Below are positions 57,214 to 58,083 of a stretch of DNA of 63,275 bases, one piece after another. The stretch is from Flavobacteriia bacterium 40-80. Its GTDB lineage: Bacteria > Bacteroidota > Bacteroidia > Flavobacteriales_D > Crocinitomicaceae. Made by a program: the position numbers and the translations under genes. The notes beneath the pieces are model-generated. The model worked only from the letters and a program-made list of their open reading frames with translations, ran no database searches and was not told the DNA's origin. Where the stretch lies: NCBI GenBank assembly GCA_001899145.1, contig MKVF01000029.1, positions 1-63,275 on the forward strand. The letters run 5' to 3'. Numbering within the stretch: position 1 is the stretch's first letter; every line of letters starts with the position of its first letter.

Positions 57214-57286
57214 CGCGGGGTGGAGCAGTTGGTAGCTCGTCGGGCTCATAACCCGAAGGTCGCACGTTCGAGTCGTGTCCCCGCTA
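57214..57286 (+). tRNA. Initiator tRNA-Met (anticodon CAT)
   Basis: 73 nt cloverleaf. Initiator features are present: position 1-72 is an unpaired C/T and the anticodon stem carries three consecutive G-C pairs (CGGGCTCATAACCCG). T-loop TTCGAGT, discriminator A, CCA not encoded. It differs from E. coli fMet mainly in the D-loop and T-stem. Its 3' half is duplicated at 57607-57657. Confidence 0.95.
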
Positions 57287-57298
57287 CTAAACAAAAAA

Positions 57299-57325
57299 GG
57301 ATCACAAGTTTTGTGATCCTTTTTT
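57299..57325 (+). terminator. Terminator of tRNA-fMet
   Basis: GGATCACAA-GTT-TTGTGATCC (9-bp arms) then TTTTTT; flanking A and T runs make it bidirectional. Twelve nt after the tRNA. Confidence 0.92.
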
Positions 57326-57345
57326 GTTTTATGTAAAATTGTTTT

Positions 57346-57600
57346 ATGTTTGTTACTTACGTCCTTTTCTCTGAAAAACATGACCAAATCTACATCGGTT
57401 ACACCTCTGACCTCATTAATCGTTTTCACTCTCATAATGAATTAGCAACAAAAGGCCACACTATTAAATTCAGGCCATGGATTGTTATTTACACAGAAGG
57501 CTTTGATTCTAAAACAGAAGCTATGAAAAGAGAAAAAGAACTCAAATCTTCAAGAGGAAGGAACTTCATCAGAAATTACATTACGACATATTACAGATAA
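57346..57600 (+). CDS. Small GIY-YIG nuclease family protein beside tRNA-fMet
   Basis: 84 aa, essentially one GIY-YIG domain: TYVLF and YIGYT motif halves, catalytic-type Arg in DLINRFHSHNE, and the glutamate-bearing helix EAMKREKELKSS. ATG at 57346 sits 20 nt after the tRNA terminator, with no promoter of its own that I can see. It lies inside a repeated module whose right end copies the tRNA 3' half, as if the gene travels with that sequence. Not obviously an intron-type homing enzyme, since the tRNA is intact. Confidence 0.9.
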   Translation: MFVTYVLFSEKHDQIYIGYTSDLINRFHSHNELATKGHTIKFRPWIVIYTEGFDSKTEAMKREKELKSSRGRNFIRNYITTYYR

Positions 57601-57606
57601 CTCAAT

Positions 57607-57657
57607 GGGCTCATATCCGTCTGCTGACGGACGCACGTTCGAGTCGTGTCCCCGCTA
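57607..57657 (+). pseudogene. Partial copy of tRNA-fMet (3' half)
   Basis: GGGCTCATA (anticodon region) is kept, then the 3' anticodon arm is replaced by TCCGTCTGCTGACGGA. The sequence from CGCACG to the discriminator and beyond is identical to the real tRNA. The 5' half is absent, so it cannot fold as a tRNA. Confidence 0.85.
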
Positions 57658-57670
57658 CTAAAGAAATAGA

Positions 57671-57697
57671 GGATTGCAAGTTTTGCAATCCTTTTTT
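57671..57697 (+). terminator. Second copy of the tRNA-module terminator
   Basis: GGATTGCAA-GTT-TTGCAATCC then six T. Compared with 57299-57325, two adjacent stem pairs have changed on both arms, so pairing is kept. Confidence 0.85.
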
Positions 57698-57710
57698 GTT
57701 TTCTGTAAAA

Positions 57711-57885
57711 TCGTTTTCTCTCACATCATAATGAATTCGCGATAAAAGAACACACTATTAAGTTCAGACCACGGATCGGATCTGTTTACATAGAATGCTT
57801 TGATTCAAAAGAAGAAGCAATGAAAAGAGAAAAAAAGTTCAAATCTTCAAGAGGAAGGAACTTCATCCGAAATTACATCTCTTAA
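57711..57885 (+). pseudogene. Truncated GIY-YIG copy
   Basis: The reading frame (RFLSHHNEFAIKEHTIKF and onward to NFIRNYIS, stop) aligns with residues 28-80 of the intact gene. The start codon and both GIY-YIG motif halves have been removed, apparently by a 74-bp deletion between short AATTGTTTT/AATCGTTTT repeats. No in-frame ATG before the remnant. Confidence 0.85.
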
Positions 57886-58083
57886 CACATTACAGATAAC
57901 TCAACGGACTCATATCCGCCTGCTGACGGACGAAAAGAGTTTCTTGTTCATGTTTAAAAGGTTTAAATGTTAAAAATTACAACAAATATACCACAAATGG
58001 ATAATATATGTAATATTACACTATAAAAATTTACAAAAATGTGAAAAAATCAGGTTATGAAAAATAATTTTTATCACTACCTG

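Follow-up and report, generated by a model that had tools for sequence, protein, structure and literature searches.

The window, the whole 63,275-nt stretch of DNA that we analysed (contig MKVF01000029.1 of Flavobacteriia bacterium 40-80), contains a tRNA-Met(CAT) gene followed by a tandem array of two small GIY-YIG nuclease modules. The coordinates are given in Table 1. From the GGG/CCC anticodon stem and the unpaired first base, we take this tRNA to be the initiator. In the preliminary description of the window, an intact tRNA was followed by a terminator and an 84-aa GIY-YIG gene; ARAGORN and Rfam, the 100% complementary stem and the PF01541 match all agree with that order.

Table 1. Features of the array at the initiator tRNA gene (window coordinates)
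Feature	Position	Strand	Evidence or remark
Intact tRNA-fMet(CAT), presumed restored target gene	57214..57287	+	ARAGORN; Rfam tRNA, 60.5 bits
Terminator hairpin between tRNA and nuclease gene	57289..57329	+	Arms 57289-57307/57311-57329, 19 nt each, 100% complementary; T-run at end
GIY-YIG nuclease P0001, 84 aa	57346..57600	+	PF01541, E=1.9e-17
tRNA-like stub (GGGCTCATA), tRNA positions 20-37	57598..57615	+	14/18 identical; dead copy starts here; overlaps the stop codon
16-bp palindrome TCCGTCTGCTGACGGA in place of tRNA positions 38-47	57616..57631	+	Same place in 39/40 scorable tails elsewhere
Exact copy of tRNA positions 48-74	57632..57658	+	Identity extends to 57662
Second terminator	57660..57702	+	Stem 80% complementary; region 85% identical to first terminator over 53 nt
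Second GIY-YIG frame, 58 aa, dead module	57709..57882	+	N-terminal ~22 residues missing
Stub of second module	57897..57914	+	Repeat comparison with first stub
Second palindrome TCCGCCTGCTGACGGA, one arm mismatch	57915..57930	+	Near-copy of first; subsequent tRNA 3' copy lost

The 3' part of the tRNA gene is repeated exactly at a spacing of 371 nt (57261-57291 and 57632-57662). This agrees with the unit of about 371 bp proposed earlier and with the claimed exactness of the copy, whose length is 31 nt rather than the 30 bp then given. With up to two mismatches allowed, the segment occurs at just these two places in the 3.52-Mb genome. The second terminator, the truncated GIY-YIG frame and a third junction (57897-57932) were all present as described. 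The right end of the module does imitate the tRNA, as had been proposed; the hairpin at this end, formed by the palindrome between the stub and the tRNA 3' copy, had been missed. The pattern TCCGYCNNNNGRCGGA matched twice in the window and never in shuffled sequences.

The only ORF of at least 40 aa within the array besides the GIY-YIG frames is antisense and has no Pfam match, which leaves GIY-YIG as the sole protein of the unit. No tyrosine or serine recombinase was found within the array, and the earlier statement that an integrase is absent held for the ORFs of the array and its immediate neighbours. The upstream neighbour is ribonucleotide reductase. The two downstream genes, right after the array (58176-60762), are adjacent, overlapping and related (466 and 401 aa); they share the motif GxGxCHSLPxLYxIL and match no Pfam family. 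A third, divergent GIY-YIG gene (28701-28907, minus strand) is located about 200 bp downstream of a tRNA-Ala(TGC) gene (29121-29196); no clear dead tRNA copy was seen there.

An AlphaFold2 model of P0001 (84 aa, pLDDT 95.4) consists of a compact GIY-YIG domain and no extra domain. Residues Y5, Y16, G18, R26, H30 and E63 are invariant in 12 diverse rows and presumably have the catalytic roles known from I-TevI. Foldseek ranked UPF0213 (1zg2) first, Slx1 second to ninth and I-TevI thirteenth, the first match alone having E<0.001. The best sequence relative in the PDB was 1ywl (E=2.8e-5), again UPF0213, yet P0001 reached no NCBIfam model when membership of that family was tested. UPF0213 and Slx1 are the nearest solved sequences and folds, and to our knowledge neither has a mobile or tRNA context. 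Purifying selection acts on the relatives: in 22 non-independent pairs with dS <1.5, the median dN/dS was 0.18.

A GIY-YIG search of the same genome gave six places, two of which are the window array. Of the others, one is found at the end of contig C16, where it follows a pair of identical tRNA-Val(TAC) genes, and one at the start of C30. Taken together, these contig ends read tRNA-Val, terminator, GIY-YIG, dead tRNA-Val copy with TCCGATGCGTAGCAATCGGA, a repeat of the terminator, another GIY-YIG and a stub. Since both ends share sequence, they are probably one array that was split by the assembly. Between the two tRNA-Val genes of C16 there are two decayed tRNA-like units that have no nuclease gene.

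Association of the nuclease genes with tRNA isotypes

Using seven proteins of the initiator clade, we scanned 84,980 species genomes, confirmed 343 relatives and analysed the best 80 of these 343. The nearest upstream tRNA (same strand, within 600 bp) was tRNA-Met(CAT) at 60 of the 80 loci and another isotype at none; a contig edge intervened at five, and 15 had no upstream tRNA. The distance from tRNA-Met(CAT) to the gene was mostly 30-90 bp. The preliminary description had suggested searching Bacteroidota for GIY-YIG genes close to tRNAs with duplicated ends, and these counts bear it out. At least five of the 15 tRNA-less loci (L047, L084, L101, L103 and L117) have upstream a tRNA-Met 3' piece that begins in the anticodon arm, in L047 with a dead unit between this piece and the nuclease gene; L088, also among the 15, has the mirror arrangement described below. 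tRNA-Met 3' pieces that start in the anticodon arm and stand apart from an intact gene were also seen at G138:C15, G128:C19, G091:C36 and G147:C37. Isolated pieces of this kind look like attR ends of islands in the same tRNAs, which would have displaced the GIY-YIG module.

The hosts belong to Flavobacteriales, Sphingobacteriales, Chitinophagales, Cytophagales, Bacteroidales, Saprospirales and Balneolales; a few relatives bear names of other groups, for which binning errors may account. Mapped against the host orders, the tree of the initiator clade required 21 changes versus 38 after shuffling, with few supported forks. The nuclease tree thus follows the host orders better than chance, so wide or frequent long-range transfer is not supported. 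A phage or plasmid origin was considered and rejected: P0001 had no tblastn match in a phage collection (50,697 records) or a plasmid collection, no confirmed relative in IMG/VR (query A2) and none in PHROGs or PADLOC.

Within the family of the window, 66 of 100 genomes contain a relative of P0001. Our family sample, a non-random one, combined 60 further places down the E-value-ranked list with loci L026-L038 and gave 95 GIY-YIG frames, a few of them counted twice. An upstream tRNA lay within 700 bp of 50 frames, seven were at a contig edge and 38 had none; in the genome of the window, with its 39 tRNA matches, the chance that a random same-strand position falls within 700 bp downstream of a tRNA is about 0.4%. 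Downstream of 33 of the 50 frames, a stretch of the upstream tRNA was repeated over at least 14 nt (shuffle maxima 7-12).

Other GIY-YIG clades are found at Val, Asn, Leu, Arg, Asp, Pro and other tRNAs. A tree of 95 distinct proteins (65 labelled by their tRNA and 30 unlabelled, with 'none' treated as one label) had 36 label changes compared with a shuffled mean of 59.4, and 0 of 200 shuffles were as low. Within its Met clade, 17 of 18 rows carry the Met label and the remaining row is unlabelled. Automatic isotype labels were kept with their errors in the tree and in the hairpin counts below: two 'Ser' rows are 5'-type units at tRNA-Pro, and L002 was counted as 'none' though its tail is tRNA-Val. 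One nine-row clade, which represents a different GIY-YIG group, is never at a tRNA. Rfam analysis of 20 loci, mostly without a nearby tRNA, gave two matches, a weak tRNA (L258) and a group II intron (L242).

Hairpins in the dead tRNA copies

Of the 80 loci, 61 have a plus-strand CAT tRNA; the tail could be scored in 40 and not in 21, several of which have further T-arm hairpins or are decayed. The tRNA segment A38-T47 is exchanged for 14-16 nt in all scorable tails except one (L111), where intact tRNAs follow one another. The inserted nucleotides form an inverted repeat with end arms of at least 6 in 35 of the 40 tails (shuffle rate for at least 5: 0.27%), and the fifth pair shows compensatory changes (C-G 25, T-A 14, other 1). 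From position 48 to the end, 24 of the 40 tails are exact copies of their own tRNA, compared with 0.9 expected for a random other locus; there are 24 distinct tRNA 3' sequences.

Among the 65 labelled family rows, the hairpin has tRNA sequence on both sides in 34, and 31 lack such a hairpin; tRNA on at least one side was found in 48, some of these hairpins being terminators. The typical positions are 37/48 for Met (11 of 19 rows), 28/46 for Val (6 of 10) and 32/44 for Asn (4 of 8). Further positions are 38/51 for Asp (2 of 6 rows), 27/45 for Leu (two rows) and 13/17 for Leu (two rows). There are exceptions: three Asn rows depart from the typical position or have no hairpin (two of these rows come from one locus), and the Arg nucleases of L281 and L285, identical at 70 of 80 residues, have hairpins in different arms. 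The position of the hairpin in the dead copy is typical of the nuclease clade, with these exceptions. The junction of the dead copy lies inside the tRNA (37/48 in the window, D-arm or T-arm elsewhere), and not at its 3' end as first thought; the idea that the insertion restores the tRNA is itself supported.

The module could in principle be a mini attL/attR cargo that a site-specific tyrosine integrase moves in trans, and the island-like attR pieces beginning in the anticodon loop of the same tRNAs fit this proposal. We regard it as very improbable: the unit has no integrase, its hairpin is flanked by tRNA on both sides in the 34 rows mentioned above, unlike attR, and the hairpin position varies by clade between the D-, anticodon and T-arm.

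Full modules are accompanied in L026, L063, L102, L347 and L367 by nuclease-less units, some in tandem, that consist of a hairpin-bearing tRNA 3' half and a terminator (L063 and L102 were called from tail spacing only). More nuclease-less hairpin inserts were seen in L010, L016, L019, L027 and L224, downstream of the tRNA or module and within duplicated copies of the T-arm or 3' end of the tRNA; in several of them a GAGAAGTTTAT motif precedes the stem. They may represent a further small element of similar type. We also considered the palindrome as a genome-wide repeat. TCCGYCN{2,8}GRCGGA occurs at 10 places in the genome of the window (control pattern, 1), two of which are the tails; the other eight have no tRNA-like flanks by eye, and one of them (L128) is terminator-like. 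TCCCGAN{2,14}TCGGGA occurs at three places. Given these flanks and the three places of the second pattern, the palindrome is not a genome-wide repeat in this genome.

In a mirror arrangement, the upstream flank and a palindrome-bearing 5' part of the tRNA come first, followed by the GIY-YIG gene and then by the flank and the intact tRNA. This order was found at tRNA-Arg, Leu and Pro and once at initiator Met; tRNA-Gly (L224) has a mirror-like layout with longer hairpins. Both arrangements obey one rule: the nuclease gene lies between one intact tRNA and one hairpin-interrupted tRNA copy. The right-end hairpin, the mirror 5' arrangement and the use of other isotypes by other nuclease clades are refinements of the first interpretation of the array, which is otherwise supported.

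One nuclease clade has a conserved double hairpin in the T-arm, immediately before TTC(G/A)A. A protein search for this clade in 180 family genomes gave a match in 103, and reading of 20 loci, five of which had no recognised upstream tRNA, placed the units at tRNA-Ala, His, Val and elongator Met. In a related Asp group, the hairpins lie in the spacer that follows the tRNA. Since tRNAs resemble each other most in the T-arm, hairpin position and isotype breadth go together in this clade. We see in this the best hint that the nuclease works where the hairpin lies. The hint comes from one clade; the single-isotype Phe locus L028 has a T-arm hairpin too and is neutral in this respect.

Empty sites and displaced native ends

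An initiator tRNA search gave one match in most of 100 family genomes. We took 90 of roughly 103 places, of which 88 were readable: a GIY-YIG match lay within 700 bp in 16 (L152, L157 and L189 being far off or fragmentary), 58 were empty, 11 were too short and three had a distant tail-like motif only. Three occupied loci could be paired with empty sites, as had been suggested beforehand. In L132/L136, from one genus, the flanks are 92% identical on both sides and L132 has an additional module; the tRNA 3' part, the terminator and a stretch of native flank (about 25 bp), together about 90 bp, occur twice in L132, with the right copy slightly different. In L173/L172 the upstream and downstream flanks are 97% and 83% identical, and a further ~600 bp are carried. 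In L314/L348, at elongator Met, they are 90-97% and 93.5% identical, and the insert combines a hairpin unit and a module whose tail is broken with about 0.8 kb of other DNA. These sites show presence and absence at orthologous positions, with which both gain and precise loss are compatible.

For tRNA-Arg(TCT) we read 14 genomes of one genus (g11), two of which are occupied (L281 and L285). In L281, the terminator that follows the dead copy on its right belongs to the relatives' type (84% identical to L290 over 159 nt, and partly to L282), whereas the terminator between the tRNA and the nuclease gene does not. In L285, the acceptor and T-arm of the intact tRNA are of type A; the dead copy is an almost complete tRNA of type B, the type found in L286, and carries the palindrome in the D-arm. 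Both cases fit the prediction that the element carries a replacement and displaces the native part, as read from the sequence types. In L132/L136 and L173/L172 both tRNA-end copies look native, which fits within-species homing and local duplication equally. At the start of its contig, L290 (G102:C157:1-75) has a tRNA-Arg with type-mismatched acceptor strands (GGCCCCG with TGGGATC), either a hybrid tRNA or an assembly artefact.

These data bear on the view that nothing moves here. The gene would then be an old, domesticated nuclease downstream of tRNAs, tandem copies would arise by unequal recombination and the palindromes would merely kill stray tRNA copies. The partial agreement of the nuclease tree with host taxonomy, the purifying selection and the direct repeats, which allow precise loss, are what one would expect. 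Such a gene should not be so patchy at the initiator tRNA, nor does this view explain the foreign terminator (L281) and foreign tRNA type (L285) to the left of a native remnant, the mirror 5' arrangement or the placement of the hairpin. We therefore consider it improbable.

The intact tRNA of L132 and the next 27 nt are identical to the empty allele L136, so there is no sequence immunity within that stretch. A nuclease that targeted it would keep cutting its own host; a cleavable site extending past the tRNA and these 27 nt is possible. Because the intact tRNA lacks sequence immunity, plain homing is an incomplete explanation.

The immunity problem is removed if the nuclease acts on the hairpin of its own element, as a cruciform or single-stranded, and thereby frees or nicks the unit, which would then enter tRNA loci by homologous recombination, using the tRNA end and terminator that it carries. 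Homology, rather than protein-DNA recognition, would then account for isotype fidelity. The hairpin type tracks the nuclease clade and, in the T-arm clade, stays the same from one isotype to another, the nuclease-less units of L026, L347 and L367 have kept the hairpin, and Slx1, among the nearest folds along with UPF0213, is a branched-DNA nuclease. Taken alone, this mechanism does not account for the several isotypes of the T-arm clade or for the fixed position of the hairpin within the tRNA, and the closest biochemical precedent, SegB (see below), cuts within tRNA genes. We judge it rather unlikely.

Known systems and interpretation

Gene hybrids in atp6, atp9, cox2 and nad3 are formed by fungal mitochondrial mORFs (Beaudet 2013, PMC3630166). 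In these elements, the endonuclease ORF (LAGLIDADG, or GIY-YIG in the case of atp9) follows a gene whose 3' end has been replaced, and the native end is displaced downstream (PMC3630166). The anatomy of our units is the same in this respect. A foreign carried end with a native displaced end was seen in L281 and L285, though not in L132 and L173, where both copies look native. Unlike mORFs, which sit in protein genes of fungal mitochondria, our units are in tRNA genes of many isotypes on Bacteroidota chromosomes and have both 3' and 5' arrangements; a hairpin is not mentioned for mORFs in the passages considered (PMC3630166).

SegB of phage T6 is likewise encoded by a small GIY-YIG gene adjoining tRNAs; its cleavage peaks are reported to lie inside tRNA genes, with the motif RAWTSGAAC, and it drives nuclease-dependent tandem amplification by homologous recombination (PMC13096335). 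By our own reading, the reverse complement of this motif is a T-loop motif. Unlike our units, SegB is from a phage, and neither replacement of a tRNA end nor a hairpin is described for it in the sections considered (PMC13096335). P0001 had no match in the phage collection or PHROGs, the collections from which homology to SegB was judged.

We file the unit among endonuclease-driven elements. It shares with free-standing GIY-YIG homing genes the domain with its conserved residues and presence or absence at one cognate site; because the test of immunity, L132 versus L136, showed none in the element-bearing allele, we set it apart from homing endonuclease genes proper. It differs from integrase-type elements that integrate at tRNAs in that their recombinase was not found in the window array. 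RAYT/REP and IS200/IS605 elements also have a single nuclease gene, short end hairpins and gene-less derivatives; unlike the unit, they use HUH tyrosine transposases rather than GIY-YIG enzymes and do not restore a tRNA.

Our search of the open-access literature (titles and starts of abstracts) found, among the matches listed, no description of elements of this kind in Bacteroidota. In the parts of a 2006 GIY-YIG survey (PMC1564403) covered by a term search, Bacteroidetes are unmentioned and tRNA appears three times, none of them concerning such an arrangement. The unit seems to be a minimal mobile element of a type that has so far escaped notice.

On balance, the unit is probably a homing-like mobile element that resides in tRNA genes and carries a replacement for what it displaces; its mobility and the cleavage of tRNA genes are what we infer from the comparisons above. 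Several observations speak against this reading: the lack of immunity in L132, the agreement of the nuclease tree with host orders, the 30 of 95 family proteins without a tRNA within reach and the nine-row clade that is never at one, the exceptions in hairpin position, and a fold nearest to UPF0213 and Slx1, with I-TevI no higher than thirteenth. The nuclease would break the tRNA gene at a clade-specific place, in the anticodon arm for isotype-specific clades and in the T-arm for the multi-isotype clade. Repair would then copy an allele that bears the element, restoring the tRNA 3' part and adding the terminator, the nuclease gene and the hairpin before re-annealing at the native remnant. The carried replacement would be the 3' part and terminator in the usual arrangement, and the 5' part and upstream region in the mirror arrangement. 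After insertion, the tRNA gene would be whole and the displaced native part would lie beside the element as a hairpin-marked dead copy. Tandem arrays may stem from repeated rounds or from recombination between the ~90 bp direct repeats, and the hairpin may be a cis-acting end of the element. Since the anatomy of mORFs matches and SegB cuts tRNA genes and drives amplification, we favour a break with copying repair at tRNA genes over action of the nuclease on the donor end. From the hairpin positions typical of each clade, sites of cleavage or docking can be predicted and assayed directly.

More tentatively, and as a possibility to which we give less than even weight, the units could form a new transposon-like class in which a lone GIY-YIG protein is the mobility enzyme and acts on the hairpin end of its element, the tRNA gene is both target and homologous docking site, and clades differ by the tRNA arm that they enter. 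If so, hairpin-only derivatives would be its non-autonomous (MITE-like) members, and successive invasions would reshape tRNA alleles, with tRNA ends or whole tRNAs replaced between lineages.

If our reading of the units as tRNA-resident mobile elements is true, a phylum-wide element with one protein of about 80 residues in a unit of about 0.35 kb lives within essential tRNA genes, including the usually single-copy initiator tRNA, and does not destroy them. This would account for many of the small GIY-YIG genes next to tRNAs in Bacteroidota and would provide a bacterial counterpart to the fungal mORF gene hybrids. It would also make it testable how selfish DNA enters essential RNA genes and swaps their ends.
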